A DNA stretch of 64,000 nucleotides, taken from positions 1 to 64,000 of the forward strand of contig CAWUHX010000158.1 of assembly GCA_963922205.1 (NCBI GenBank), in the 5' to 3' direction. Source of the DNA: Romanomermis culicivorax. Taxonomy: Eukaryota; Nematoda; Enoplea; Mermithida; Mermithidae. The translations under genes and the position numbers were made by a program. Below the pieces are notes generated by a model. The model searched no databases. It was given only the letters and a program-made list of their open reading frames with translations, and was not told the DNA's origin. Positions within the stretch are counted from its first letter, which is position 1; each line of letters opens with the position of its first letter. Shown one piece after another: positions 26,650 through 60,409 of the stretch.

Positions 26650-26652
26650 TGG

Positions 26653-28869
26653 ATGTTATTCTTTCGGGAGCTGCAATGGAACACATGCCTTGTGTATCTC
26701 GACGATGTTTTGGTATTCGCAGACTCCCATGCCCAAATGCTGGAACGTTTAGACACTATTCTTGCCCGATTCTCACAAGCAGGCCTTAAGCTAAACATAC
26801 AAAAATGCAAATTCTGCCAGCCCAAAGTCCAATACTTAGGCCACGTCATTTCTCAGCAAGGCATTTCACCAGATCCCCATAAGGTACAAGCCATCTATGA
26901 CATACCCACACCCAAAAGCTCAAAAGAAGTTAAGTCCTTCCTTGGCCTACCCTCATATTATCGCAGATTCATCCCAAATTGCTCTCAAGTCTCTAGCCCA
27001 CTCACATCGCTACTCAAAAAGAATTCCGAATTTTCCTGGGGCCCTGAACAGCAAAACGCATTCACTAAGCTAAAAGAATTACTCATTCATGCCCCAATAC
27101 TGCAGCATCCCGATTTCACAAAACCATTCATTCTGCAAACTGACGCCTCAAAACTCGGAATTGGCGCCATTCTCAGTCAGCTAGATAGTAAAGGTCAGGA
27201 TCGCCCCATTGCTTTTGGGAGCCGCACATTGAAACCCGCAGAACGCAACTACCCAATAACTGAGTTGGAAACCCTTGCAGTAGTCGAATTTGTCAAGTAT
27301 TTCCGCCCCTATCTTTTCCAGCAACATGTTATTGTACACACTGACCACACAGCAGTTCAGGCAGTCTTACAAAAGGAAAACCCGTCCCCTCGCATTGCCC
27401 GTTGGGGATTAGCCCTCTCCGGTATCCAGCTAGACATTGGACCCAAGAAAGGCACTGCTAACCGCAACGCAGATGCAGTTTCTCGATTCCCCTCACAAAC
27501 AGCAAAGCAATCCTTTGATATTGAGCAATTAGAAACCCGCCCCGAAATATCAACTATCAATTCAGTTTTGGAAGCCGAAGCAACTGAACAAGAAGAGCAA
27601 CAGAAAAACTTTGCCGAACTCCTACGCACTGATCCAACTGTCAAAAGTATTTTAGCAAAAATTGCCCAAAAACACCCCCTTACCCTTATCAAATTTGCAG
27701 TGCATCAAAACATTCTCTTCCGTATAGTCGACAAACAGGCAAAACTATACATTCCCAAGTCCCAAGTCCAGCATCTCATCGCCTCACATCATGACAGCAA
27801 ATTCACAGGTCATTTTGCGGCCCGGAAAACTTTACACTTGCTCAGACAGAAATATTTCTGGCCCCAAATGAGCCGTGATATCAAACGTTACTGCAAAACT
27901 TGTCACCCATGCCAGACACAGAAAGCTCTTAGGCACAAAGTACATGCAAACCTGGTACCAATTCAGCCGACTGGCCCATTTGATCGAGTTGGTGTTGATT
28001 GCATGGGACCGTTACCCCTCACTGAAGACGGCAACCGATTCATTGTCGTTTTCATCGATTATTTCACAAAGTATGTAGAGGCATTCCCAACCCCTGACAT
28101 CACTGCAGCTACTATTGCCAAGCTATTCGTAACCAAAATTGTTTGTCGTCATGGGTCCCCAAAAATCATTCATTGTGATCGTGGCACCGATTTCGTATCC
28201 GATCTTTTCTCACGGATCACAAGTTTATGCAATACTCAGAAAATTCACACTACCCCATATCATCCCATTGCCAATGGGGAAGTTGAGCGTTGCAACCAAA
28301 CCCTAGCCACCCGTATCCGCATGTACATCAATTCAAATCACACTGATTGGGATACTTATCTCCCGTATGCCGTTTTTTCGATCAACATTCATAAAAATGA
28401 TAGCACTTCGTATCCCCCATTTGAATTACTCCACGGTAGGCAAGCTAATCTCCCGTCAGATGCAGCTTTAAACTTTTTCCCCACGTCCTACATGGTTGAT
28501 TTGGATGACTACGCCCTTCGTGTAAAATCGCATTTCACAGAAGCACTCTCAACCGTGCAGAAAAGTTTGCAAAAAGCCCAAGCCCACTATGCCCGTCAGT
28601 ATAACAAGCATGCTCAGAACATACATTACAAGGCAGGTGATCTTATTCTTTATAAAAATCATTCGTGTAAACAAGGGTTGACTCCCAAATTCCTCCCTCG
28701 CCAGAACGGACCCTATACAGTTACAAATTTCAGGTACCCCAACGTTACACTCAAACACCCCCATAAGAATATTACATTTACGGTGCATGTAAACGAGACA
28801 ACCCCTTTCTACCCTCGGAAAGCAGCCAACGAATCCACCCCCACCCCTCCTCAACCTGGAAAGCCTTGA
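26653..28869 (+). CDS. RT C-terminus, RNase H and integrase (element 1)
   Basis: 738 codons in the same numerical frame as the upstream ORF, but joined to it only through about 85 bp read in another frame. The RT active site VYLDDVLVFA is near residue 15, followed by the thumb. RNase H has QTDASKLGIGAIL (~160) and HTDHTAVQ (~232). Integrase shows the HHCC zinc region (H-x-n-H then C-x2-C at ~415-418), core Asp at ~447, second Asp at ~506, Glu at ~543, and a GPY/F module near 685. All expected catalytic residues are visible. The ORF ends about 20 bp before the polypurine tract. The Ty3/Gypsy (Metaviridae) domain order RT-RH-IN is clear. Confidence 0.95.
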   Translation: MLFFRELQWNTCLVYLDDVLVFADSHAQMLERLDTILARFSQAGLKLNIQKCKFCQPKVQYLGHVISQQGISPDPHKVQAIYDIPTPKSSKEVKSFLGLPSYYRRFIPNCSQVSSPLTSLLKKNSEFSWGPEQQNAFTKLKELLIHAPILQHPDFTKPFILQTDASKLGIGAILSQLDSKGQDRPIAFGSRTLKPAERNYPITELETLAVVEFVKYFRPYLFQQHVIVHTDHTAVQAVLQKENPSPRIARWGLALSGIQLDIGPKKGTANRNADAVSRFPSQTAKQSFDIEQLETRPEISTINSVLEAEATEQEEQQKNFAELLRTDPTVKSILAKIAQKHPLTLIKFAVHQNILFRIVDKQAKLYIPKSQVQHLIASHHDSKFTGHFAARKTLHLLRQKYFWPQMSRDIKRYCKTCHPCQTQKALRHKVHANLVPIQPTGPFDRVGVDCMGPLPLTEDGNRFIVVFIDYFTKYVEAFPTPDITAATIAKLFVTKIVCRHGSPKIIHCDRGTDFVSDLFSRITSLCNTQKIHTTPYHPIANGEVERCNQTLATRIRMYINSNHTDWDTYLPYAVFSINIHKNDSTSYPPFELLHGRQANLPSDAALNFFPTSYMVDLDDYALRVKSHFTEALSTVQKSLQKAQAHYARQYNKHAQNIHYKAGDLILYKNHSCKQGLTPKFLPRQNGPYTVTNFRYPNVTLKHPHKNITFTVHVNETTPFYPRKAANESTPTPPQPGKP

Positions 28870-36262: not shown

Positions 36263-38221
36263 GTAACTTTTTTGGTAAAGGAAAGTTTGATCAGGCTAAA
36301 ATTTTTGATTTTTCGCTCAGGAGAAATGGGAGAAAGTTATTTGGAAACTTGTCTGAAACAAAAAACCTTAATCTGGTCACAGGAAAAATTGAAGCAACAA
36401 CAAAAAAACAATTCTATTGGATTTTAGCAACATTTATCCAGTGTTGAAAAAAACGAACTGTTGTATTATGCCATTTTCTTCTCCAAATAATTATGAGATT
36501 ATTGCTTACAGCTATCAGGCCAGCTTCATTTTCAAGACACTTTCTATTGTTCTTCCCAGGATCTTGCTCATAACCTATGCAAGCAAGTCTAGATTTGCCA
36601 GTTTCTGCACTAGTGGCATACAGTTTTAGTTTTATGACAGTTTCCACCTACAAAAAAACATTTTTTGCCCTGTTACGCTGATGTTGGATATATAAACCTG
36701 ACTTAGGTACCAGATTTATATTCAAACCATTCAACTGCCATTGAGTTTAGTAGCCTTTTTTCTGTGAAACTTTCAATTTTCCATGTTGATCTTGTGATCA
36801 AAATATCCTGTAGGAGTGAGCTTTAATTGAGCCCACAGGTTTAGAACATTTACGTCCACAATGATGGCCTTGACTAGTTTTTTTCTGGATACCCTCTAAT
36901 AAGAGTCCTGACTTTAGAAGTTCGTTGAGTCATGACTATAGAGAGCCCTCCAGTCATAATAGCTTTGGAATCGTTGTACAAATGTTCAGTTTTCTCAGTG
37001 AATAAACTAAATTTGGTACCTGTAATACCTTTAAATAAATACTTTTTTGGTAACTCCAGGGAAAGAACTCTAAAAAAATCAATGTCAAATTTTGACGAAT
37101 ACAAATTAACCATATTCAGACAAGCTTAGTGAAAAGCTTCAACATCTAGCTTGCTGTAGAAAGCCAAATATTCCATTACATTTTTCATATTGAGCTGGTT
37201 CCGATATACTTTGCATTGTGCATGATTTTTCAGCTAACTATAAAATCTTTTCATAGGAGGAAGTTGTGTTTTAAAAATTTTTCTCAAAAGAGTCAAGATA
37301 TTCGAATTAAAAAATTGCTTTAATCAGTGAAGCTCTGCAAACTTTAAAAAATTCGTCCAAATTGAAACCAGGTGTGTGGTAATGTACTATTAAAGAAACT
37401 TCAGAGCATGTCTAGAGTAGGAAATAAGTTGTGTTTTACTAGATTTCTATCATATTTCCCAGAATTAGACCCAAGGCAAGTCAGATGAGTGCAGTAGTTA
37501 TAAAAAGGTTTCTCTCGGTTCAGTGAGGTAGTTTAGTAGCCACTTCTTGTGTGCCAGTTAGGTTTTTATAAACTGTCCAGATATGCCTTAGATTCAGATA
37601 TTTTAGTTTCCTACTGGAGAAAGAACACCTTGTAATGTTTTAGCAAAATATCTGTTTAGATTTTTGAAACTCACTCCAGGTGAGATGTTATCATTTTTAT
37701 TAAGTAATCAGGATATGTATTCACAAAGCACACTGTTTCAAATCCTGGCACATGTGTTTGGTTGGTAAGCCTAATTTCTACTGAAGCCCCGAATAACAGG
37801 GAGGTACTCTCAATATTCAATATTTTCTATACATTCTTCTAGAAGCTAAAAAAAAGCCGGAACAAGTTTCCTTTTGTGACAGTATAGAGATTTTGTAAAA
37901 ATTTTGGACGGATTCTGATGAATACTACTATTCACTTTTTTTACAGTATGTCAAGTGAACAATCGGTGCGTTACGTTGTGGGCTTTGGTACAAAAATTCG
38001 GGATGGATCTGGCAGGTGATTGGTTTCACTCATTCACATGACTGCTCTTAGTCAAAGTGACGGGATCACACTCAGGATGTGGGAGGATTTTCTGAATCGT
38101 GTCCTGAATTCATTAGCATCACCAAGGTTCATATTTCTTAGAACACGAATAAACTTATGTTGTTCAAGGTTAAAAGTGGAAAATAGTTTAAACAAACTTT
38201 TCAGAAAAAGGCCAATATTTT

Positions 38222-39055
38222 TGTCAGAGGGTCAATTCCTCTGACCTTTGGTCCTCTAATTACATCATTTCATTTTCTAAAGTTTCTTTAGTGCTAAAGT
38301 GTTTTCATTTATTCTCAGGTAAACAAACCGATAAAACGGTTTGTGTCACTCATATTTTTGGTCTAAAATAAACAAATGGTTGGCGCAAATGTTTTGCATA
38401 TCACTTGCAGGTCGATGTTAGACGCGCGACAGCGCTTTTATTCATTCTCGTTTTTTCTTATTATTATTATTGTGGAAAATATTCTCGTCTGGAGACTCGC
38501 CTCTCCCTTGTGTATTATTGGCGTCTGCAACGTAGCATTCGGACGCTGTGTTATTTGGACGGTGGTGACGAAGGAAAGGATCATCGTTTTGTTTATTTGT
38601 ATTTCGTGATACGCGCCGCGGGCGAATTTGAGTAGTAACGCGGCCTGAGACGTTTTCGACGTTTCCCCTTTGAGGAAAGGAACCAGTGAGTGGTTGTTTG
38701 AGTTAGTTTACTTATTTTTGGTAGAGTTTCAGCTTAGGCCGTGGCCTGAGAGATCCCATTGGCCCTGTGGCTCGTTGCTCAGGGACAAGTCAGAAGGATC
38801 AGTCGACTAGGGAGGTTGTTGGCGTTAGTGTTTATATTTTCGGCACTCTGCACCTTTGTTTCGTACTTACATTCCTCATTGTATTCCACTACCTGTTGTG
38901 TTTTGCTCACCAATAAACGTTCACGTACATCAAGTCTCAACTCACTGCAGTAGGAGTGAAATTAGTACCGGGTTAGCGTCAGGGGCCGTACCAGATTGGA
39001 TCTCCCAAGAACCGCAGGTAGGCAGCCGAGGGCATACGAGCACCACAATACGACA
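38222..39055 (+). repeat. 5' LTR of element 2
   Basis: Starts TGTCAGAGGGTC and ends AATACGACA. An AATAAA polyadenylation signal lies at 38912-38917. Small open frames inside it recur in the 3' LTR and are not genes. Confidence 0.95.
38912..38917 (+). promoter_or_regulatory. polyadenylation signal in 5' LTR
   Basis: AATAAA about 140 bp from the LTR end; the copy that would act on element transcripts is at 51734-51739 in the 3' LTR. Confidence 0.55.
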
Positions 39056-39075
39056 TTGGTGACCGGTACAGCTAC
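39056..39075 (+). other. primer-binding site of element 2
   Basis: TTGGTGACCGGTACAGCTAC directly follows the 5' LTR. TGGTGACC is a common Metaviridae primer-binding start (complement of a tRNA CCA end). The tRNA was not identified. Confidence 0.65.
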
Positions 39076-39086
39076 AAAGGTAAAAG

Positions 39087-39587
39087 ATGAAGAAAGTATC
39101 GAAGCCGAAATTAACGATAAGGAAGCAACCTGGACGGCGGCCGAAAGTAACATTATCGCAAACGGAATTGACTAAAGAGGATCACGATGAACGAATGGCA
39201 AATATGGAAGCAACGATCGAACAAGTAGCAAAGAAATTTGTGAATTCACCCGATGACAGCAACAAAGATCAGACTATTGACGCAGAGACATATGATTATG
39301 CGGATCAGGGGATACAGACGTCCTCTGGTTCAGTGTCATCCTTCGAGAAGATTAATGTAACTCCGAAAACGAATGTGGTATCATTTCATAATTCGAAATA
39401 TACGCCTACAATACCGGAAATCGACGCAAAGGTGGGTATCGAAACGAAACCAAGGAATGAAACCGAAAGACCGACGAAAGGAAATTTGCAGGATGTGGCC
39501 ACTTTAGCCATCCTGGAATCAATGCAAAGAGCAGTTGATAAATCAGCAAATGCCGTTAATGTGGAAAGAACGAAAGCAGCGCTCTGA
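39087..39587 (+). CDS. Gag N-terminal segment (element 2), ends at TGA
   Basis: The ATG at 39087 is 31 bp after the LTR and opens a Lys/Arg-rich start followed by a hydrophilic region. At 39585-39587 a TGA interrupts it, but the same frame continues to a second TGA at 39654-39656 and then into the long ORF at 39687. Both stops sit in a Glu/Gln/Arg-rich coiled-coil-like stretch and share the context TGA GAA CAR. The original product is therefore most simply one Gag-Pol polyprotein from 39087 to 45110. Confidence 0.8.
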   Translation: MKKVSKPKLTIRKQPGRRPKVTLSQTELTKEDHDERMANMEATIEQVAKKFVNSPDDSNKDQTIDAETYDYADQGIQTSSGSVSSFEKINVTPKTNVVSFHNSKYTPTIPEIDAKVGIETKPRNETERPTKGNLQDVATLAILESMQRAVDKSANAVNVERTKAAL

Positions 39588-39686
39588 GAACAAGAAATAT
39601 TAGAGCAACTTATGCAAGAAAGAGCAGAGAGAAAATTATTGGAAGAAAGGTTATGAGAACAGGATCAACAAAATGCGAGAAAGATA

Positions 39687-42600
39687 ATGGAAGAGGTCGA
39701 AAAACAAATGCGAGAATTGATGAGGAAAACGGACAAGAAGCTCGATGAAAGAATATCGAATTATGAAAATGCAGAAATACTTCAGTCTGAACCGGTTAAA
39801 GACCATTTAGACAGAAGTTTAGAGAGAAAATTAAATTGGTTTGAAAATCATCTTGCCCAGGCACAGGCTCAAGGCGCACAATATCGAAGGATGGAAGATG
39901 AAATACCAACGACGTCATGGAATCGCGGAATGGAACAACCTGTGTCTGGAAGTATAAATCGAAATCCGCAAGATTATGGACGATATTGTGAAGATCCCGA
40001 GAAAAGAATCAAGATAATTTTGGGTCGAATGAAGAATAAAGAAATATTGGATAAAATGGAGGCCGCAGAGATACTCAATTTTTTCGCCTGTTTGGAAGGC
40101 ACATTCAAGCCTGAAGATACGGAAGACCTTAGAATTGAAGTACTTTGGCGATGTTGCGATTTTGAAACTTCGACATACGTGGATAAAAATAGTAGCTATG
40201 AAGAAGGAAAAGCGAGTGTGATTAGAATGATTGCTCCCAAAATGGACACTCCTGCACTTAGAAGGGAGTTACATGATATGAAAAAACGAAAAGGGGAGAC
40301 GACAAAGGATTTTTTACACCGAATAAAAACTTATGTTCATTTATTAAATTACGAAAAAACGGAAAATGAACGGAATAGAATTGTTATCGAAACGTATTTT
40401 CACAAAGCTCCAGTTTACGTCCAAACTCGAATGGAGGGTCGGCTTCACGAATTCAAAAATATCGCCTCTTTGGCGGAATTCGTAAACAAATTGAAAGCCG
40501 ATACGACGGCCTGGAAGGAATTTAGCGAGGACCAAGAAGACGGCGAAGATGATCGGTTGAATAGAGTCTATGAAAATAAAAGATTTAATAATTTACAATT
40601 TCGGCCGCAGGATAGTAATACAGGTCAACAGCAACAGATTATACGGCCTCAGCAAATTTTCCCGCCACCACCAGCATTTCAAACCCCTTTGTCTCAACAG
40701 GATATTATGAAAATGGTTAATGAAGCAATTAGGAGTCAGGGCCCTCCAACTCTTAATCGTTGGGGAGTCAATAATAATCCTAATAATGTACCATATAATA
40801 ACAACTTACCTGGTAGAACTTTGGGAAATCCGTATCGTCGACCATATTGTACATACCACAAATCGAATAGTCATTCGTCTGAAAATTGTTTTATCCTGCA
40901 CCCGGAATTGATCCAACCAACGGATCAAGGGAGGTCGTGGAATCGCGGCAATAATTTTTATAATCGAAATTTTGACCATCGCCGCGGCTTTGTAAATCGT
41001 GGAAGAGCAGGATTTGCTAATTTCGGCCAACGGGTGCCATATCACAATAATAACGTCGAGCATAATCCGAATGTGGCATATTATTACCGCCAAAATAGCG
41101 CCCCACAGCCACCGCCAAATGTTGTACCAGTAACACCATCGCAACCAGTGAATAACCCTCCGAATAATTCCGTAAATGTTATAAATTCGCAAGAGGCTAA
41201 AAAACAAGATAAGCCGGAAATTATAGCATTAGATGGAGTTTTGATAGAGAATTACGAGTTAGGCTTGGGGAACGTTATCAATTCTACTTCAGAAACGAAG
41301 CCTAGACTCGCCAATGATAACGAGCACCTATTTTTGGAAAATTTTCGCAAATGTCAACCGTTATTGATACCCGTTAGGATACGCCGAGAAGAATTTAAAG
41401 CCCTAATCGATACGGGAGCGCAATCTAGCTTCATGAGGACAGATACAGCGTCCAGGCTACTGAATACGCCCAAGACAAAATTCCCTATCTTAAATTCAGT
41501 AGTAACAGCCGTCGGAAAACGAGTAACAACATATGGGCCTACATTTGTGTACGTTGGAACCGGTTTTGGAAATTTTCTGGCCAGATTCGCATTACTAGAT
41601 AACCTAAATGAAGGTATTATATTGGGTCTAGATTTTCTAACCCATCCTAGTATACAGGCGTCTATCGATTTTCGAAACGGCCACATACGCCTAGCAAATG
41701 TAGAGAAACAAATTATTAGTGAGACATTATTCGACGATGCGCAAATACCGTCCCGTTTACCGATCCCTACGAATCCAATGGTTCTGGATTACGTACCTCT
41801 ACAAGAGGAAGTCAAAGAAGAAGATCTACCTGAATTAGAAAGTGACGAGGATCAAGAACAAGTGATGCGAATTACTGAAATGAACGAAGAAACCTTTATT
41901 TGGACAAAAAACGGGACATATATTCCCCCAAATACCACTTCTTTTGTGCAAGCTGTGGTTTGGCCACAGAAAGATTGGGCAAAGGGTCCCATAGTGGTAG
42001 AAGAGACGGGGAAAGATACCTTATTTGACGTCGATGCCTCAATTGTGGACGCTAGAGACAACAATTTTCGTATCCTACTCATAAATGAGACAAACAAGGG
42101 AATCAAACTGCGTAGCAACGAGTTGATAGCCAAGTCCAAAACGAAGTTCGTAGGGCCAGAATTTGACGAAAAAATACATCAACTGCAATCAGAGCCTCGA
42201 ACTCAATGGCAAATCGAACCAGAATTCGTCAAAATTGTTACGCAGTTGGTAAAGGAATCGAGTGTCGATAGAGAAGGAAAACAACAGCTTATGAATGTCT
42301 TACTCAAGCATAGGCACGCATTCAGCATGAAGAGCGATCCTTTAACAATGACCCACGAAGCAGAACACAAGATCGATACAGGAGACGCGTTACCTGTCCA
42401 AAAACACTACTGGAGAGCTCCAATTATGCAAAGAGATATAATTCGAGAACATGTGAAGGATATGATGGAGAAAGGCGTCATCGAGCCTTCTAGAACCCCT
42501 TGGGCTGCGCCATTGTTTTTAGTAGGCAAAAAAGATGGCACATGGAGACCAGTAGTCGACTACAGAGGAATCAATCAAGTGACGAAAGACGATAAATTTC

Positions 42601-45110
42601 CGATACCGCGAATCGATGATTATTTAGACGCCCTAGGAGGAGCACGGTACTTTTCCACATTGGATTTAAAGTCTGGGTATTGGCAGGTACCGATGCACTC
42701 TGAATCAAAAGAAAAAACAGCATTTATATGTCAAGAAGGTTTGTTCCAGTTCAAGGTGATGCCGTTTGGTTTAAAGAATGCTCCCGCGGAATTTCAACGA
42801 CTAATGGAACGAATTTTATACCCATACGTATGGAAAATATGCCTAGTATATATCGACGATGTTATAATTTTTTCAAAAACCGTCGAAGAGCATATAGAAA
42901 ATTTGGAGACAATATTTCGATGTCTAACAAACGCGAACCTCACGCTAAAACCTGACAAATGTTCCTTTATGCCAGCCAGTGTGAAATTTTTAGGCCACAT
43001 ATTGGACAAGAACGGAATGTCAGTCGATCCACAAAAGATAGAAGCTGTAAAAAATTTCGAAGTACCTAAATCCATCAAGCAGCTGCAAAAGTTCTTGGGA
43101 TTAGTGCAGTGGTCTAAACGTTTCATTCACAATTTAGCCTTTATCGCCCAGCCCTTATTTAAAGCCCTCGCAAAGAAAAATAGGAAGGAAAAGTTTGAAC
43201 TTTCAGAGGAGCAGTTAGCAGCTTTTGAAAGTGTAAAGAATGCCCTAATGACGGCACCCTTCCTCCGATATCCAGTATTCGACGGATCGGCAAGATTTGT
43301 AATTCAAACGGATGCATCAGGAACGGCAATAGGGGCAATTTTGTATCAGGAAACGGAAAATGATCGATGGACAATAGCTTACTTGAGTCGAGTTTTAAAC
43401 GACGCGGAAACAAGGTATTCAACGACAGAAAGAGAATGTTTGGCAGTAGTTTACGGGTTCAAGCAGTATAGGCACTACGTGATGGGGTTTAGGGTCACAA
43501 TCAGGACAGACCATAAACCACTCACGTGGCTCTCCGCAGAGAAGCAGCAAAATCAAAGGTTGTTAAAATGGGCTTTATATCTTGGTCAATTCAATTATGC
43601 ATTCGAATACGTAGCCAGACGTGAAAACGCCTTCGCGGATTTCTTATCACGATCCGAAGAAAAGGAAAAGATTCGAAATAAGAGACAAGAAACAAAGGAA
43701 GAAATCGAAGAGGAGAAGTTCAGTACGGAACCTGAATGCATGGCAGTAACTCGAGCCATGACGAGGCAAATGCTTGAACCCGAGACTCAAGAGACATTCA
43801 TTGATCCCCCACCGCCGACCCAACAAGAAATAGATCAAACACCGAAAGAAGTGAAAAAAGATTCCGAATTATTCTCCCTGGAATTAGTTAAGAAACAACA
43901 ACAATTGGATCCGAAGTTGGTGGACATTTTTCGGAACGTTGGTGAAAATAGTTCGAAAAAATACTTTAATAGTTTTCACTTGGAAAACGGAGTATTATAC
44001 CGCGAAAATGCCCATGGAAAAAGCCAACTAGTAATCCCATCAAGACTTAGACACCTCATCTTACATCAATATCACGGCGATACATTAATGGGGCACCAGG
44101 GAATAGATAGAATTATAGCCGCGATAGGAAACAAATTTTGGTGGCCAAATATGGAAAACGACATTATTAAATGGATAAAATCCTGCGTCGTTTGCCAACT
44201 GTGCCGCCCCATAGCAAATCCGATCCAACCGCTTAACCCAATACCCGTCTCGTACCCGTGGGAAATAGTAGCAACCGATGTGGTCAGTATTTCGCCCCTT
44301 CGAGAAAAAAGACCATACGTTATTGTATTTATGGACTATTTCACGAAATGGGTCGGCATCCCAGATCAAAAGGCCGATACGATAGTGAAAGCGTTTATGG
44401 AGAAGGTCATTTATACGCACGGAACACCGAAACATTTGCTGAGTGACCAAGGCTCAGCATACATGTCCGAGTTAATGCGCAACGTGTGCGATCTCTTAAA
44501 AATAAAGAAAATAAATACAACACCATACCACCCGCAATGCAATGGTATGGTGGAGAGATTCAATAGAACGTTAATAGAACAAATTAGGAGAGTCGCAATA
44601 ACCGACCCGGACGATTGGCCACACTATCTCGAGCAAATTTTATTTGCGTATCGGATTACGCCGCACAAAACAACGAAAAATTCCCCCCATAGCCTACTGT
44701 ACGGACACGAGGCAAGGTTTCAATTGGATAATGAGATAGCGAGGCCAATAATTATCCAGAATAATTACGACACCTACAGATACATGTTAACGGAGCATCT
44801 CCTTAACACGTATAAAATCATAAATGAAAATCATGAAAAATCCGCGGCCGAAAGAAAACTACAGTACGATAAGAGGGCTCGCGAAAAGACGTTCCAAATG
44901 GGAGAACTTGTTCTCTACCAGAAGGGAATTATCAAAGGAAAGGCCGACACAACAAACGACGGTCCGTATGAAGTAATTGAGACATCGAATTTAGAAAAAA
45001 ATGTCATAAAAATACGTCGCGCTGGGAAACCAGATTCACGCGTACAAATAGTTTCTGTAAATCGCGTAATGCCTTTTGTTACGCGAACGCCCGATTTTTA
45101 CTGTAACTAA
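39687..45110 (+). CDS. Gag-Pol polyprotein (element 2)
   Basis: 1,807 codons. Residues 1-~70 continue the coiled coil, and ~90-290 form the Gag capsid-type helical region. A Gln/Pro/Asn-rich linker precedes a variant zinc knuckle, C-x2-H-x4-H-x4-C, at ~387-400. Retropepsin DTGA is at ~574. RT spans ~915-1110 with active site YIDD at ~1055. RNase H has [13 protein letters not shown] (~1207) and [10 protein letters not shown]. Integrase has an HHCC zinc region from ~1460, core Asp ~1529, Asp ~1587 and Glu ~1622, then a GPY/F module at ~1759. All catalytic motifs are intact, and gag and pol are not separated by a frameshift. Confidence 0.97.
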
Positions 45111-45498
45111 CAATTCATTTTTATCGTTTTCGTTGTGCGTTTTGTTCGGATTAATTTTATGTGTATTTTCTAATTGTATTTTTTCTAACCTTTTCCCCTT
45201 TCTTCTTTTTCAATTTTTAATTGTACTGACTTATTTTTGGCAATTTTATGGCAAGTTTTAGGCATTTTCCAAAAAATTACAACGCCGGAAAATTTTTAAT
45301 GGGCGAAATAATATTTTTTCACGCACTCAGTGTGAAAAAATTAAATCTTAATAAGTCCCGGGAAAGTCTTCCCCGAATCATTGAAGTCGCGAAGCCGAGG
45401 AATTATGGAATTATTTTTTAGATTTCATTTGCAAAGCGTTAGTGTATTAGTAATTTTCGTCGATTGGAAATTTCAAGAAATTCGAATTCGAACGCGAT

Positions 45499-45583
45499 AT
45501 GGCAACGTCCAGTATCGTCGAAATTGATAGCACCTTCGGGCAGCCTCAAGATCGGCAAGATAATACGAATTTTCAACTTAGTA
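45499..45583 (+). CDS. predicted short AUG exon of ORF2 (element 2)
   Basis: ATG at 45499, 28 codons plus one base, ending at a consensus donor GTAAGTAT (45584). Unspliced, the frame runs on only briefly. Joined to an acceptor AG at 45810-45811, the single left-over base completes a codon in exactly the ORF2 frame, which lacks its own early AUG. This exon was too short to appear as an independent ORF. It is inferred from donor strength and phase match. Confidence 0.55.
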
Positions 45584-45811
45584 GTAAGTATCGGAAAGGT
45601 AGAATATATGTTGAAATTTTTCGGAATAGGACTCTAAGTTGACCGGCCGGCAATTTATATGCCGAGGATTTTGGGTGTTTGAGAGCCTGATCAACTCCCC
45701 TTCGTCCAAATTTATTTTTGTGCATTTGAGTCGTTTTTTTCGAAATTATTGTCAAAAATTGTAGTTAGAAAATTGTATGAAAATTTTAAGATTACAATGT
45801 TCGAAGATTAG
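45584..45811 (+). other. predicted intron of ORF2 (element 2)
   Basis: 228 bp, GTAAGTAT to GATTAG, AT-rich as expected for a small intron. A stop at 45787-45789 closes the ORF2 frame upstream, so ORF2 needs this or a similar splice, or a non-AUG start. Confidence 0.5.
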
Positions 45812-48800
45812 TGCGTTCAACGGATATTTCAAATTATTTCACGTCGTTGTTCGGTGTGCCTCATGCGGCCATCGAAGAACCATTATTTTTGGCGCCCGAA
45901 AATTTGAAAGCATTTATTAAGGCGATAAACCATTCGAAGTTTCGAGGACGGATAGTCATAGCGTTGGATACAGAAAGTGGGAGGAAGCCAAAAACCCCAG
46001 GATCGAAGCCTAGCGATGCATTGCGACTTTTAACGATTTCAACCATGTGCGGAAAGAACTTTATAATCGATTTGAAATTTTGGGACAAAGAACATTTCCA
46101 CAAAGTATATGGAACAATATTTCGCCGGGAAAACATCATCGTCGGTTTTCACATTCGAGAGGACATCATGTTAGTTCTGACTAAATTCGGATATTTAGAT
46201 CAGGAAAAAGAACTAGTGCGGAAAAGACGGGACAACATAGATTATATTTTATCGTGCTGCGTTTACGATTTGGAGATTGTGTTGGCAGAGATGAAGGACA
46301 AGCCGAAAGCAAGAATAGTCAGAATCAGCCCCGAAGGTCTCAATTTGAAAGCCCTCATGACGGAAATTTTGTTTTTATGGGCCGACGCCTTCAAGATTTC
46401 GTGGGGACAGTTGAGTTCCCTAGAGTTTCGACAGCTAATGGAGGCAGATAAGCTAAACATAGAACTTCTGAGATACGCGACGCTCGACACGCGCGGGTCG
46501 CTTTTATGTTTTTTAGCGTTACTTCGATATGGATTCGCGAGCGATATTCAAAATTGCTTTCAATTGTACCCACACGACACGATGGAGCCGGAATTGATCT
46601 CCGATCTAGCACGAAGATTTAGAGATACGTTCGAAGGTAGAATTGCCGATCCAGAGTGGAAAGGAGCATATGGAGTGGAAGAAGTAACGGATAACAACAA
46701 CGCGCTGTATTTCATGATGCGTGGAGAAGCTATCGCGACGTATAAATTGTCGGAAGAAATGGCGCCCGGGACTTTTCACTGTCCTCCGCATTTCTCCAAT
46801 ACCGATATTGAGCCACAGCCAGTACCAAACGGTTGGTTCCCGTGGATAGAGAGAAAAGTGAAAGCGTCAAGGAAAAGAAAAGATACTGACGATTCCGAAG
46901 AAGCACCGGCAAACGATTGGGATTTAGAGGATATCTTGGCGGCACGACAGTTCGGACGGCCAATTGAACTCCGGGAAATGGAAATGAAAAAAGGAAAATG
47001 GCCTAAGGAAGTGATCCACTTCACTAATGTTATACGAGAACAAGTTTCGGCACTTAAAGACCATTATCACTCCAAAATCAACCGATCAATCGTCCCCATA
47101 GTCAAAGATTTGTACGAGAAAAACGTGAACCCAATCATTTACTTCTTTTGGCCTCACTCGGCGCAAGAGTGGAAAGCCTGGGTTCCTGGATTCACGTCTG
47201 GTATGTGGGCCTCTGTGTGGAGAACCGAACAGGAAGGGATTGAATTCATGAAGTGGATGGGCCAGGATCTTTTGAACGACAAAATTACCGATCAAATGGA
47301 GCAGATGATGGAACGGTATCCGAAGATACGTACGCAGAAATCCATCCAGAACACTTTTTGCGTACTACCTATAAGATGGATACCGCGATCCTGCAAAGAA
47401 CCTATCCAAGAAATAAAGACGAATTTGCGCGATAATTCTATTTATCATATGAATTGTAACTTTTATAACTTGTTTCATTTTCTGAATATCCATGCCGCGA
47501 GTCAGAACCTCATTTACTGGAATGTTTCCGCGTCCATATTCGAGGCTAAGGACCTATGGGCCCCTAGCACCTCTGCGACCTTTAAATCTGTAAATAAGTG
47601 GGACGATTCAGATCTGATTCCACAAGTAGAAGTTGTGGTTCCCGCTAGCCAGGGCCCTATGGAAGAAACTTCGAAGGAACAGACTGTAACAGTACCCTCT
47701 ACAATAGATAATTCGAATGTTTCAGGTACCGAGATGGAGCAAGAGAAACCCGTAGTTGTGGTCATCACGGATCCCCCTATCGCCAGTACACCCGCTGAGG
47801 GGAGTACAGGTGTTGAAGAGGAGGAGAAACTCATGGAAATAGTCGAAACTGAAAAAGAAACCCAACCCGATTTGGAGAAATTAACCGACCAGATAAAAGA
47901 AATGAAAGAAAAAATAGAAGTTTTGGAAAAAGAAAAGTACGGGAAGGGTGCAATGGGTGCAATCGGATTAGCAAAGCAATTAGAAGATGTCAATCCCGAG
48001 GAAGAAGAAACGAGCGAAGAACCCTACGTGGAGGTGGTATCAGAGATCGGTAGCGATGACAAAGAAATTACGGATAGCGTTTTGCCCACGCCGCCGGTTT
48101 ATGCAAAAGCCGGTGGGCAAAATGTAGAGAATATCAAGAATCCGGGAAAATTTGCGAAGGTGATGCAATCGAAAAGACAGGCTACAGAGAAACGAATAGA
48201 TCGCGAAGAGAATAAAGCCGAACTGGACAAAGTAAAGAGCGGGCAGTTTCAACAGCCAGCCGGAAACCCGAATGATAAAGTCAAATATCGACGAGGCCTC
48301 GGGAAACGGGGGCAAGTTCTTAACAAGGCCTTGAAGGAAGGAAAGTACGTCGTCGACTTCCAGTACGGGAGAGTATCTCTGTCAAATCCATGTGTCCAGA
48401 AGTATCTCGCGCACATGGATCCCACTTTGGATGAGGAGGTAGCTCTGATGGCGACAGACCTGATAAACCGTGTATACGACGAGGCCGGGATCGAAATTGA
48501 AACTATACGATATTACGAACTACAGTTTCACGTTCTACAGGCGAACTTGCCAGAAAAATTGTGGAGTATTTTCGAGCTTCAATTAACCGAATGGAGTACT
48601 ACACGATCTGCGGAGAAAGCTTATGAGGCCGCCGTATGGGCTTGCGCGTGTCTATTTATGAAATTGTCGAGATTGGGCAGGATTCCCCAAAATTTTGCTG
48701 GATTCCATTACCAAGCCCATGCGTATGTTACAATGAAATTGCGCCGCGAGTTCAACGCTAGGCAAGGAGGAGCAGGGAGCAATTTTCATACGTTATACTC

Positions 48801-48966
48801 CTCATGCCAGGCAAAGGCAGCGGGGTTAGCCTATACGATTGCTAAGGCCGTGCTACAAGACAAGAAGGACCCTGAACCGAAATACGCGAATATACAAGTT
48901 TGGAAGAAGGAAATTGACAATACCGACCCCCGAATACGGTTTTGGGAGGTCATCGATCGGAAGTAG
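45812..48966 (+). CDS. ORF2 of element 2: DEDDy 3'-5' exonuclease-like protein
   Basis: About 1,050 codons after integrase, in the env position. Counting from 45811, the N-terminal ~240 residues carry a full DEDDy exonuclease signature: motif I D53-x-E55 (IALDTES), motif II GFHIREDI with D118, a CVYDLEIVL helix, and motif III Y222-x3-D226 (LLRYATLD). This is the RNase D/WRN/MUT-7-type fold, which removes nucleotides from nucleic-acid 3' ends. The ~350-570 region has many Trp and Phe residues and is unrecognised. Residues ~590-750 are acidic and low-complexity with a coiled coil at ~690-715. The C-terminal ~230 residues are a basic, helical, possibly globular domain. There is no membrane span or signal peptide, so it is not an envelope. 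It ends at TAG 48964-48966, with the frame open beyond. Confidence 0.85.
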
Positions 48967-48978
48967 GCTCGTGATATA

Positions 48979-49872
48979 TTGGAAGTTCAAAAAGCCTTAA
49001 AGAAAAGAGTGGGATACCGAGTCAAGCATGCCCACACTAGGCCTGCGACCAGTAAGGTATCCAAAAGATGGATTAGAAAGGAAAGTGATACACAAAGAAA
49101 GGAGAAATCGAAAACGCTGGAGAAAGACAGAAAGAGAAGACACGAAAGCAAACATAGAGACGAAAGCCGCCACGAGAAGTCGATGTCACGAGAAAAGAAA
49201 CGCAAGGAAGCTGAAGAAGAAAGTTGGCGCAAAGAGATCGATGATTACGAAAGGAACTACGAAAGGAAAGAAAAAGAAAAGAGAGAAGCGGCAGAACGCA
49301 AAGATAGCAGAGAATCTCGGAGTAGAAAAAGAACATCGGCATACTACCAACACGATGATAGAGTGGACGTGGCCTACTCCAGTCGAAAGACTTCACTGGA
49401 TAGGTCTAGGGCCACCGAAACAACTCAGCAAGGAGTGTCAATGGCCGATCCAAACGCGATGATGCAAGCCCAGCAGCAGCAGTTACCTTATTTACCGCCG
49501 AATTATCCGGGATTGCCGATGGTGGGTGTTGATTGTATAAACCGCCCTCTTTTTTCAGGACAGTTATTCCCGAATACAATGGTGCCCCCGCCGGCACAGT
49601 TTCAAGTCCCGCAGTTTCCGGTCATGCAATTCCAGGCCGGGCAACCCCAATTTTACCACCAGTTCTTAGTTCCGCCAGGAATGCAGATGCCTCCGCCTAC
49701 GATGATTCCGCCGGTGCGTAATGTGCAAACCGAGGAAAGGATGGACATCCCGGGGACGTCTACGAGTACGAGACCGCCGTCGACCGAAAATCCCGATTAT
49801 ATTTCACCGCTTAAACGGGATACCGGTATTGGTCAACCGGGACGGGACCATAGCGGTCATAGAAGGAAGTAA
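48979..49872 (+). CDS. ORF3 of element 2: Arg/Ser/Glu-rich then Pro-rich protein
   Basis: The frame is open from 48967, in phase with ORF2 and separated from it only by the TAG. Residues ~1-150 are dominated by Arg, Lys, Glu and Ser with SRSRKR-like and REKKRKE-like runs, resembling RS/RE-type RNA-associated proteins. Residues ~155-260 are Gln/Pro/Met-rich (QQQQLPYLPPNYPGLPM). No catalytic domain or zinc motif is seen. The predicted start lacks an AUG nearby, so it is probably expressed as an ORF2 extension by readthrough, or is a recently separated C-terminus. A nucleic-acid-binding role is inferred from composition only. Confidence 0.7.
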   Translation: MEVQKALKKRVGYRVKHAHTRPATSKVSKRWIRKESDTQRKEKSKTLEKDRKRRHESKHRDESRHEKSMSREKKRKEAEEESWRKEIDDYERNYERKEKEKREAAERKDSRESRSRKRTSAYYQHDDRVDVAYSSRKTSLDRSRATETTQQGVSMADPNAMMQAQQQQLPYLPPNYPGLPMVGVDCINRPLFSGQLFPNTMVPPPAQFQVPQFPVMQFQAGQPQFYHQFLVPPGMQMPPPTMIPPVRNVQTEERMDIPGTSTSTRPPSTENPDYISPLKRDTGIGQPGRDHSGHRRK

Positions 49873-51030
49873 AGTTTTTATGTTTCAGATGACCCCGCTC
49901 TCCGTGAGGTCATTATAAGGATAGTTATTTCGTTCTGTAAAATTTTTTGATATTTCAAGAGTTACCTATTTTTTCCGTTTTGAGCGTCTGTATTACAAAA
50001 TCGAAACCGGTTGTGCCACCTTTTTATGCCTTAAAGTTGCCTCTTGTACTAATCTCAAATTGTTTCATTTATTTTTTCGTTTGTGTTTTGTTCGAGATCT
50101 GCACGGAAATATATCGTATTTCTTTTTTTTGTGAATCTGGAAATTGCCAAGCAATTTTTTGTACCTTCTTAAATCGCGGGTATTTTTGTGTTCCTTTCCG
50201 AAAAGTCACCAACTGACATCGCCCAAGGATAGCAGGCTTTGCGCTGCCATTTTCATATTTTTTCCATCTTTTTTTTCCAAAACACATTTTCATTCTAAAA
50301 TTTTTTTTTTTCGTGGCACAGACTGTGTTATGGGTTTAAGTTTACCTCTTAATAAGGCAAATTCACTTTAGCATTAAATACCATAAACATTTTTGGTTCA
50401 AAATCTAGACAGCCAAAGGGCCAGAGGATTTGGTTTTCGGGCATCCTTTCTCCCTGGGGGCAGATAATACCAAAGGCGTCGGGGGGCCAGTGTCCGGCCA
50501 AGGGGCCAGAGGAGCAACGGCGGCGGAATTTGGAAAGTCTTGCGGGCTCTCCACGAGCAACAACCCCCCCTCCGGAGAGGACGGAGACGAATGCCACAAT
50601 CCGTGATGGAGGAGCCGCCGATACGAAATAAATCGACGGCAGTGGGGAGCAGCCCACAACCTAACTCGGGCACCGCGGGGGTCGCCGCCGATTAAACGTT
50701 TTTATTTTTATTTTGATCAAAATTCGGCCCGAGTGCCGCGAACGCTATTCGTTCGAACATTTTTTATTCTTGTATTTGGGACCACGAGCCCACGGGGCAT
50801 TTTATTAGCGAACTTTTTAGCGTCGGGGGTAGCATCCGGCGCAATTGGCCCAAAGTTGTAACGATACCATTCAATACAGACATTTTATTTTTTATTGTTT
50901 ATAATTGCGTCAACGGCGCGTAGCGTCGTTCGTTGGAACATTTGGAGGCGTCGATCATCGGCGTCGAGTGTCTGGGGCCCTTGGGGGACCTCCTGACTTT
51001 TCCCTTCGCTGGCGGGAAAAGTCTTGCCTT
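49873..51030 (+). other. 3' untranslated region of element 2
   Basis: 1.16 kb between ORF3 and the polypurine tract. It contains T-rich tracts and then a GC-rich segment at 50400-50690, in which all three minus-strand frames are open (composition artefact). No conserved product is recognisable. Confidence 0.65.
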
Positions 51031-51043
51031 TGGGGGGGAGGGA
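51031..51043 (+). other. polypurine tract of element 2
   Basis: TGGGGGGGAGGGA immediately upstream of the 3' LTR. Confidence 0.88.
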
Positions 51044-51877
51044 TGTCAGAGGGTCAATTCCTCTGACCTTTGGTCCTCTAATTACATCATTTCATTTTCT
51101 AAAGTTTCTTTAGTGCTAAAGTGTTTTCATTTATTCTCAGGTAAACAAACCGATAAAACGGTTTGTGTCACTCATATTTTTGGTCTAAAATAAACAAATG
51201 GTTGGCGCAAATGTTTTGCATATCACTTGCAGGTCGATGTTAGACGCGCGACAGCGCTTTTATTCATTCTCGTTTTTTCTTATTATTATTATTGTGGAAA
51301 ATATTCTCGTCTGGAGACTCGCCTCTCCCTTGTGTATTATTGGCGTCTGCAACGTAGCATTCGGACGCTGTGTTATTTGGATGGTGGTGACGAAGGAAAG
51401 GATCGTCATTTTGTTTATTTGTATTTCGTGATACGCGCCGCGGGCGAATTTGAGTAGTAACGCGGCCTGAGACGTTTTCGACGTTTCCCCTTTGAGGAAA
51501 GGAACCAGTGAGTGGTTGTTTGAGTTAGTTTACTTATTTTTGGTAGAGTTTCAGCTTAGGCCGTGGCCTGAGAGATCCCATTGGCCCTGTGGCTCGTTGC
51601 TCAGGGACAAGTCAGAAGGATCAGTCGACTAGGGAGGTTGTTGGCGTTAGTGTTTATATTTTCGGCACTCTGCACCTTTGTTTCGTACTTACATTCCTCA
51701 TTGTATTCCACTACCTGTTGTGTTTTGCTCACCAATAAACGTTCACGTACATCAAGTCTCAACTCACTGCAGTAGGAGTGAAATTAGTACGGGGTTAGCG
51801 TCAGGGGCCGTACCAGATTGGATCTCCCAAGAACCGCAGGTAGGCAGCCGAGGGCATACGAGCACCACAATACGACA
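51044..51877 (+). repeat. 3' LTR of element 2
   Basis: 834 bp, identical in length to the 5' LTR with four substitutions that I could find (three clustered at 51381-51409, one at 51791). AATAAA at 51734-51739. Confidence 0.95.
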
Positions 51878-52138
51878 TTTTGGAGTTTAATATAGCATAC
51901 CCAATATACTGTGTAAATCGTTAAATGAAACTATAAATAGCAAATCAAGTAACATTATTTTCTAGGTTTAGTAAAAAACCTATCATGGTACATCACCAGT
52001 CTCTGTTCCGGTCGAAAAACGCTTATCTTAGGTGCTATGTTATAACATGTGCTCATGTAATAATTTTGCTCTCCAGAGGGGGTCCTTACTATTCATACTT
52101 GCAAAAAAATATGTTAATAATTAAAAGCAGAGAATATC
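51878..52138. other. flank of element 2
   Basis: Unassigned AT-rich sequence. Confidence 0.4.
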
Positions 52139-57576: not shown

Positions 57577-58599
57577 TATTACAACAACCCTTGATAAATT
57601 GGAAATTAATAATATCTGAAAATGAGATATTTTGATCAGTTTTACATGCTCACTATCGTGGCAGCATTTATTTTGCATAAGAATCAGCCTAGCTACAGAA
57701 GCCCAAAGTTTAGATTTTTTACATTTTGTGACGTATTTATGTCTGGCCTGTTTCTAAATATCGCAGCTCAGAAAAGTGGTGACACTGTAGCCAAATGTTC
57801 ATTGTGCACCAAAGACCATGCTATATATTCAAGTTTGAAAAAATTTATAATACCTTATTTTACACTTTATGCTTATTTGAAGTGTAAGGAAGCAAAAATA
57901 AACCAAAAAAGTCGTTTGAGGTTTTTTTCTGCCCAGGTTCTGGCATGATGCCCATAATTCTTTTTCTCAATTTCTGTGGCCACTAATGTCTAACATATTG
58001 TTTTAAAATTTCAATCAGAGTTGCATGCCATTTTGGGTTAGTGCCTACAGAAAGGGAGAAGAAAATTCTGCAACATCCCATCAGAAGGTGTACACAAAGA
58101 GTTCCAAAAGACTTTTTCGGCTTTTTCCACCTCTTTTTTGATACTGTGAAATAGCGTAAGAAGTGTGAAGTACAAGTTGAGAAAAATGGTTTCGTACCAA
58201 ATTATACAGTATTGTCTCTTGCAATGAATGTTTTAATACAGGATTATATCTTTTCAGTTGTATCCCTATTCCTCGAACATCCCCTTTTCTCTAAAGTTCG
58301 AATTTTTCAAAAGTCTGGGTTCCTGGAAAGTCCTGATTCCTCGAAAAGTGGATAAAATTCCCCATTCCTCAAAACATGTTTTAGTGCATCATGAATTTGT
58401 TGTCCCAATTCCTCGAAAAGAAGATAAAATTCATGATTCATCGAACATTGGTGCATCACAGATTCCAGTTCATTGAAAGTGCATATATAAGCAGTTTGAT
58501 TTTCCTGAAACGTCTGTACATTTGATCATGAATATTATAATTTCAAAATTACCATATATGATGATATGAAGACACAACAGTATTAAGAAATTTTTTGTG
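57577..58599. other. intergenic
   Basis: No supported gene. ATTCCTCGAAA-type units recur loosely between 58265 and 58480. Confidence 0.45.
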
Positions 58600-58605
58600 C
58601 TTAGG

Positions 58606-58775
58606 GCTCAGTCTTAGGCTTAAGCTTAAGCTTAGGCTTAGGCTCAGGCTTAGGCTTAGACATAGGCATAGGCATAGGCATAGGCTAAAGCTTAGGCTTA
58701 GGCTTAGCCTCAGGCTTAGCCGTAGGTTTAGGCTTAGGCTTGGGCTTAGGGTTGTGCTTAGGCTTAGGTTTGACC
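58606..58775 (+). repeat. interstitial telomere-like array (TTAGGC)n, degenerate
   Basis: About 28 hexamers, mostly CTTAGG in phase, with variants such as CATAGG and CTCAGG. TTAGGC is the nematode telomere repeat. The Arg/Leu-rich and Leu/Ser-rich frames across it are repeat artefacts. Confidence 0.88.
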
Positions 58776-59400: not shown

Positions 59401-59752
59401 CTGAAACAGAAAATGGGTGAAAAAAACAAAAAAGTTTCAGAAAAAAAATTACAGGCGTTTTATTAAAAGAGACCATATCATTTTTGGGGGTTCAATCAGT
59501 CAATAGACAAGCTGAACCTGATTAGAAGTGAAAATTACATGGAATTTTTTATTTGAAAATAAATTTGAAAAATAGGGTGTAGCCAGAAACGATTTTTAGC
59601 ATAGAACTCCAATGCTTGTGGTTGTGGACCTACAACCTTTGGCTAATAGCAACATACCTGTTGCTTTGAACTGCTGACCAATGATGTTGCTGACTATTTA
59701 GAAATGAACAATACATAGAATTTTTTGGAGTGAAAATGAATGTGAAAAATAG

Positions 59753-59824
59753 GGTTTAGCCAGGAGTCGAACCTGAGTTACAAGCATTCCAGGCTGATGT
59801 CTTCACCACTTGACCACCACATCA
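59753..59824 (-). tRNA. tRNA-like SINE head, minus strand
   Basis: The reverse complement carries an A-box-like TGGTCAAGTGGTGA, the same CAGCCTGGAATGC anticodon arm as 60135-60205 and a B-box GGTTCGACTCC. The acceptor stem pairs poorly. This is a SINE or pseudogene head, not a functional tRNA. Confidence 0.45.
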
Positions 59825-60134: not shown

Positions 60135-60205
60135 GGAGTGGTGGTCTAGTGGGGAGGACATCAGCCTGGAATGCTGGTAACCCAGGTTCGACACCTGGCT
60201 ACACC
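60135..60205 (+). tRNA. tRNA-like sequence, anticodon GGA (Ser-type), SINE head
   Basis: A 71-nt cloverleaf can be drawn. The acceptor GGAGTGG/CTACACC has one or two mismatches, and a D arm is present. The anticodon stem is TCAGC/GCTGG with loop CTGGAAT, and the T arm is CCAGG-TTCGACA-CCTGG. The GGA anticodon would be serine, but the long variable arm typical of tRNA-Ser is missing, so it is more likely a tRNA-derived SINE head. Confidence 0.5.
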
Positions 60206-60409
60206 CTATTTTTCAAAGCTGGACCTGATCACTATTCTTAAATTCAACATTGGAAATATTAGATCCATAGCAACTCTGTAATGCATTAATAGATGAAATA
60301 GAAAAACCAGGATATAAAAAAGAAAGTTATGCAGATCCCAATCAGGTCTATCAATTTGTGCCCTATTGTTTCTGCCTTGGAAGGAAGAAATCCCTATACG
60401 ATTTGAAAA

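Follow-up and report, generated by a model that had tools for sequence, protein, structure and literature searches.

A third open reading frame that very probably encodes a DEDDy-type exonuclease lies downstream of integrase in Ty3/Gypsy elements of the nematode Romanomermis culicivorax

Exonucleases of the DEDDy type have been described in several kinds of mobile elements. In bdelloid rotifers, the long terminal repeat (LTR) retrotransposons Juno and Vesta as well as the Athena elements harbor a DEDDy exonuclease in a third open reading frame (ORF3), and such ORFs were acquired at least twice (PMC5408684). According to the available portion of the same source, the rotifer ORF3s are expressed from spliced messages and their DEDD signature is altered to DEED; processing of RNA 3' ends was proposed as their role, a MUT-7-like role was also raised, and catalytically inactive DEDD derivatives were mentioned in factors of the PIWI-interacting RNA (piRNA) pathway. 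DEDDy or DnaQ-like exonucleases in retroelements, including the rotifer case, are also cited in the accessible parts of PMC6431247, PMC5718144 and PMC6338049, and the Dada DNA transposons possess a DEDDy domain that has been proposed to process 3' ends (PMC3706591). In the literature, DEDDy ORF3s in LTR elements were found only for bdelloid rotifers, and no report of a DEDDy ORF in a nematode LTR element was found, as judged by titles and abstract openings. Here we describe the ORF3 of a Ty3/Gypsy element of the nematode Romanomermis culicivorax, contained in a stretch of 64,000 nucleotides (positions 1 to 64,000 of contig CAWUHX010000158.1, assembly GCA_963922205.1; hereafter the window), which very probably encodes an exonuclease of this type.

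The element occupies positions 38222–51877 of the window (13,656 bp), and its ORF3 is located 3' of integrase within the same pair of LTRs (Table 1), as an earlier sequence-only reading of this DNA had proposed. Its pol shows the domain order protease (PR), reverse transcriptase (RT), RNase H and integrase by Pfam, which, together with paired TG..CA LTRs, a short target-site duplication and a multi-copy, dispersed distribution, places it in the Metaviridae (Ty3/Gypsy). It resembles Juno and Vesta, as the available text of PMC5408684 presents them, in being an LTR retrotransposon with TG..CA LTRs and an RNase D-like DEDDy ORF after pol, and the spliced ORF3 message reported in rotifers finds a counterpart in the splicing predicted for the window ORF3. 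On the other hand, Juno and Vesta possess a dUTPase between PR and RT, whereas no dUTPase family was found in the window pol at E ≤ 1 (Pfam), and the DEDD residues are intact in the window ORF3 where the rotifer proteins, compared by description, have DEED. The Athena/Terminon Penelope-like elements likewise carry a retroelement-borne DEDDy exonuclease but belong to another retroelement class (as set out in the part of PMC6431247 available), and Dada, a mobile element that also keeps all four DEDD residues, has the domain within its DDE transposase and no ORF3 (available part of PMC3706591). The arrangement has a precedent in the DEDDy ORF3s published for Juno and Vesta, so that the novelty of a DEDDy ORF at the env position, which the sequence-only reading had suggested, is not supported. 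What is new here is the host, which has the nematode-type TTAGGC repeat, the protein of about 1,380 residues for which no database homologue was found, and the evidence of selection; no selection test on the rotifer DEDDy ORF3s was found in the literature, including the available portion of PMC5408684.

The sequence-only reading had taken as its unit an ORF of about 1,050 codons (45811–48966, GTG start, 1,051 residues). This frame is real, but it represents only a part of ORF3. Upstream of it, a short first exon with an ATG start and a GTAAGT donor is followed by a predicted GT..AG intron whose AG acceptor lies at 45810–45811, and joining the exons gives an ATG-initiated frame; the ATG, the frame, the donor and the acceptor are kept in 20/20 loci, the window copy among them. 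After the predicted intron ORF3 runs for 1,353 more codons, and the TAG that closes the listed ORF is premature in the window copy, the frame going on to 49872. ORF3 is open to codon 1349–1353 in 12 of the 20 loci and stops earlier in the other eight, of which the window is one. A reading as several small ORFs was rejected in favor of one split ORF3: the 297-residue ORF at 48979 shares the ORF3 frame, and it is taken as the end of ORF3 because that frame continues past the TAG. The window copy is thus defective in both gag-pol and ORF3, and other copies with an open ORF3 exist. Given the conserved splice signals, a separate spliced mRNA for ORF3 is quite likely. In the protein, an N-terminal exonuclease domain is followed by a middle part and then by a second conserved domain on the C-terminal side; a basic, RS/RE-like tail comes last, K/R/E/S-rich at first and P/Q-rich at its end. 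Both the env position and the predicted splicing, which recalls that of env genes, could suggest an envelope-like protein for membrane fusion or cell entry; however, env-bearing Ty3/Gypsy elements have a fusion glycoprotein as ORF3, and Pfam finds no glycoprotein or fusion family in the window ORF3, of which one conserved part is the exonuclease domain, whereas the same search does detect an acquired glycoprotein in another element of the window (24040–28869), which makes an envelope function highly improbable.

All five residues expected of a DEDDy active site (D53, E55, D118, Y222 and D226) are present in the window ORF3, exactly at the positions that the sequence-only reading had given. The case for a DEDDy enzyme from the window protein alone is weak. 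A three-motif score found D53/D118/Y222 as exactly the best triple and was reached by 3 of 3,000 shuffles, although the test is insensitive, giving no score for three of four clear DEDDy ORFs of the second lineage described below. A single-sequence hhalign comparison with a DEDDy profile gave 22.1, compared with 20.7 for the best of 100 shuffles and 16.5 for the best of 24 decoy segments. The window protein has no match to PF01612 (DNA_pol_A_exo1) above the Pfam cut-off, its sole NCBIfam row stands at 17 bits, far below the cut-off, and no relatives were found in viral contig and phage collections.

The identification is carried by a sister ORF3 family, which was found through a loose-threshold PF01612 search of the same genome with all 119 candidates scored (80 of these places reach E ≤ 1e-3). 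Seven places near or below the PF01612 cut-off lie in open frames of 1,232–1,398 codons, and tblastn of the window ORF3 matches all seven (E 5e-21 to 1.8e-15). The nearly whole one, L054, has an ORF of 1,396 residues that also matches residues 853–982 of the window protein (E 4e-6), and the pol upstream of its ORF3, the one sister place of seven checked upstream, shares 49% identity with the window pol across 944 residues. The sister proteins match PF01612 with E 1.4e-4 to 1.3e-3 for N-terminal pieces and 0.0079 for the whole L054 ORF, below the curated cut-off: their hmmscan scores are 16.5–22.1 bits against a cut-off of 23.6, with one place at 24.0 bits including neighbours in the genome search. 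In an alignment of both families (the window exonuclease domain, two further rows of its own family and six of the seven sister places), D53, E55, D118, Y222 and D226 are invariant at 24% identity between the families. Against seven DEDDy references, the joint profile gives a probability of 89, E 2.4e-6 and a score of 48.3, and these values become 94.7, 5.9e-8 and 60.5 when five second-lineage ORFs are joined to the references; the best of 100 column shuffles of the joint profile reached 21.9. The profile–profile alignment brings the motifs into register with those of RNase D, and the top PDB match of the joint profile is EXD2, which is not significant (E 0.37). The window ORF3 thus shares its motifs and a profile match with RNase D, WRN, EXD2, NrnC and diDNase, and differs from these cellular DEDDy exonucleases in that the protein alone is unmatched in sequence searches and is longer by about 1,000 residues. 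The N-terminal part of ORF3 is therefore, with high probability, a DEDDy-type exonuclease because of the sister homology, the invariant residues and the joint-profile match, and not because of the window protein alone. The proposal that a DEDDy 3'-5' exonuclease domain occupies the env position accordingly finds support at the level of the two-family profile, whereas a Pfam match of the window protein by itself did not materialize.

ORF3 up to residue 1051 is present in at least 44 places of the genome (the window and 43 others with 94–98% identity, 44 having been scored among 3,015 candidates), and the queried part is free of stops in 27 of them. The C-terminal domain occurs in at least 150 places with 87–100% identity, 150 having been scored among 703 candidates. 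A chance capture confined to a single insertion, which the sequence-only reading had considered, is rejected on these counts together with the homologous ORF3s of another family and the purifying selection. The pooled, uncorrected ratio of non-synonymous to synonymous substitution rates (dN/dS) over 20 loci is 0.055 for residues 1–275, 0.061 for residues 801–1051 and 0.16–0.19 for the middle part, linker and tail; these ratios are, if anything, pushed up because broken copies were included. Over 290 codons of the exonuclease region, the window copy and L052 (89% identical) differ by about 138 synonymous and 40 non-synonymous changes, with a dN of 0.06. By these substitution patterns, the exonuclease domain and the C-terminal domain of ORF3 are preserved by purifying selection, and ORF3 probably helps the element, since its key residues are kept by selection. 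An accidental motif pattern, or an ORF carried as a passenger without selection, would agree with the weakness of the single-sequence tests, but is hardly credible in the face of the profile–profile E of 2.4e-6, the five invariant residues, the low dN/dS and the presence in at least 150 places.

The same residues bear on whether ORF3 acts as an enzyme at all. The DEDD fold might have been kept as an RNA-binding scaffold, as for Maelstrom and EXD1, serving in assembly or transport of the ribonucleoprotein (RNP) with little or no catalysis. The long tail with its RNA-binding-like composition would fit such a protein, as would the lack of any known motif outside the exonuclease domain (Pfam) and the inactive DEDD derivatives in piRNA factors mentioned in the available portion of PMC5408684. 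A pure scaffold, however, would be expected to lose its catalytic residues, and their survival counts against it: the five positions persist across 24% identity between families, with D53, E55, D118 and Y222 each kept in 20/20 loci and D226 in 18/20. A scaffold function is consequently regarded as improbable.

Additionally, a second Ty3/Gypsy lineage of the genome (L022–L051) harbors ORFs of 608–614 codons at the PF01612 match in 10/25 loci. PF01612 was found in all six of its exonuclease ORFs scanned (E 1.9e-10 to 1.7e-13), the other four of the ten scanned proteins being one upstream integrase ORF and three upstream pieces without a Pfam match, and Ty3/Gypsy pol sequence lies 5' of ORF3 in 5/5 loci extended upstream. 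Compared with the DEDDy references, these ORF3s give an hhalign value of 97 and E 8e-11 and, by sequence, are clear DEDDy exonucleases; a database listing for the DEDDy alignment (120 of 3,619 matches, the named ones being enterobacterial RNase D) was not used. ORF3 follows integrase in both the second lineage and the window family, but the two ORF3s give no blastp match with one another, and hhalign between them reaches a probability of 0.2, or 4.7 with the joint profile. A small tree separates the second lineage from the window family (fork support 98/98 and 100/99). As regards the capture of a host gene, which the sequence-only reading had raised, none of the cellular references in this tree groups with the window family; its long branches make both placements unsafe. 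The comparisons are compatible with two acquisitions as well as with a single, very old one.

With a probability of roughly 0.6, ORF3 would be an element-borne accessory protein, an exonuclease that trims or degrades RNA 3' ends in or near the element RNP. Translated from its own spliced mRNA, the protein would be held on RNA by its basic tail, which is rich in K/R/E/S (and in RGG in the sister family), and, with two metal ions bound by the DEDD residues, would carry out 3'-5' trimming or degradation of RNA in or around the RNP. RNA appears a fairly probable substrate from the tail composition and by analogy. The two likeliest targets would be host small RNAs or their templates, in a counter-silencing role, and the 3' ends of RNAs made by the element itself, in a processing role; either role can be put forward only tentatively. 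A more far-reaching possibility, that ORF3 is an exoribonuclease of the MUT-7/EXD2 kind joined to RNA-binding modules, acquired separately by at least two lineages and long kept by Ty3/Gypsy elements through strong selection as a weapon against the small-RNA pathway of the host, seems doubtful. The enzyme might instead act on DNA by trimming the 3' ends of the element cDNA or of the target DNA at integration, in line with the 3'-end processing proposed for the Dada DEDDy domains (available part of PMC3706591). WRN works on DNA, and an element-encoded enzyme could meet its own cDNA. However, the basic tails, of RS/RE and RGG composition, speak for RNA, and no Ty3/Gypsy integrase is known to require a helper nuclease, so that a DNA enzyme is considered unlikely.

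Several results weigh against ORF3 as an exonuclease of RNA 3' ends. That RNA and not DNA is proposed as the substrate derives from the tail composition and from analogy. The window ORF3 protein or its pieces gave no relevant match in Pfam, NCBIfam or PDB, and the protein database returned nothing at E ≤ 0.01 either for the window ORF (among 6,642 candidates) or for the two-family profile (among 5,169 candidates). AlphaFold2 models built from the single sequence and from a 9-row alignment had predicted local distance difference test (pLDDT) values of 41.2 and 40.4 and were unusable, and Foldseek with these low-confidence models (pLDDT about 40) found nothing at E ≤ 0.001. Of the 44 ORF3 places, 17 carry a stop in the queried part, and D226 is changed in two of the 20 loci. 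The window–L052 dS is saturated (about 2.6), and was not computable against L053, so that the corresponding dN/dS of about 0.02 is rough; in the sister family, selection looks weaker (dN/dS of about 0.09–0.27 in six pairs with few differences).

Table 1. Features of the Ty3/Gypsy element and its ORF3 (window coordinates)
Feature	Position	Strand	Basis
5' LTR, 834 nucleotides, TG..CA	38222..39055	+	LTR comparison; TTTT at 38218-38221
Probable primer-binding site region, TTGGTGACCGG...	39056..39075	+	Directly 3' of 5' LTR
gag-pol; TGA at 39585-39587 and 39654-39656, then open 39687-45110	39087..45110	+	Pfam, copy comparison
ORF3 exon 1, 28 codons + 1 nucleotide	45499..45583	+	ATG, frame and GTAAGT donor in 20/20 loci
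ORF3 predicted intron, GT..AG, 228 nucleotides	45584..45811	+	Sequence
ORF3 exon 2 as far as the premature stop	45812..48963	+	Frame, locus comparison
Predicted DEDDy exonuclease domain	45946..46515	+	Motif I IALDTE (D53, E55), motif II VGFHIRED (D118), motif III RYATLD (Y222, D226)
Conserved C-terminal ORF3 domain, residues 801-1051	48211..48963	+	dN/dS 0.061; at least 150 places; no known relative found
Premature in-frame TAG of window copy	48964..48966	+	Locus comparison
Remaining ORF3, same frame; TAA at 49870-49872	48967..49872	+	Frame, composition
Purine tract 5' of 3' LTR	51032..51043	+	Sequence
3' LTR, 834 nucleotides; TTTT at 51878-51881	51044..51877	+	LTR comparison

The insertion at 38222–51877 looks young because its two LTRs, with TG..CA ends, differ at four positions in 834 nucleotides and TTTT is duplicated on either side of it. 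In the window copy, the gag-pol frame is interrupted by TGA at 39585 and again at 39654; both stops are absent from 4/4 other copies compared, and a separate small ORF1 at 39087–39587 was rejected, its frame being the gag-pol frame. Three premature stops (39585, 39654 and 48964) are therefore present in an insertion with only four differences per 834 LTR bases, and some of them may already have been present when the insertion was copied.

The second Ty3/Gypsy pol of the window, on the forward strand at 24040–28869, lies in an ORF that also matches the Monjiviricetes-type fusion glycoprotein PF24664 (E 1e-18). This match and a hydrophobic, membrane-segment-like stretch lie upstream of the protease, so that the glycoprotein is on the 5' side of pol, in contrast to the usual env position. 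Elsewhere in the genome, the C-terminal domain of ORF3 occurs within open frames of 2,449 and 2,592 codons (C238:491040 and C150:297279, respectively), which are possibly fusions of ORF3 to another frame. On the contig that contains the window, three PF01612 fragments (C158:182213, 187991 and 193769) follow one another at a spacing of exactly 5,778 bp and apparently form a tandem repeat, and the borderline PF01612 places C429:19803, C180:145798 and C54:742319, in open frames of 345–508 codons, may represent another element-borne or host exonuclease family.

Regarding the surroundings of the element, nematode telomeres consist of TTAGGC repeats; the window has a (GCTTAG)n array of 170 bp at 58599–58768, and the (TTAGGC)5 30-mer has 25,431 matches in the 359-Mb assembly, an abundance indicative of a nematode host. 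Many of the matches listed lie within contigs. The canonical SL1 22-mer has no exact match in the genome, so that the host may lie outside the rhabditids, and an Rfam SL1 search gave no match among 50 of 149,498 candidates scored, in a search where no control matched either. Two tRNA-Ser(GGA) genes (59752–59823 and 60135–60206) lie 311 bp apart in opposite orientation.

The ORF3s of R. culicivorax would represent the same solution as in rotifers in a different host, carried by no fewer than two Ty3/Gypsy lineages within a single genome, in at least 150 places, with the catalytic domain under purifying selection. This pattern would point to a conflict, or a processing step, that arises repeatedly at the 3' ends of nucleic acids, and the benefit that a retrotransposon may draw from an exonuclease of its own becomes a directly testable question.

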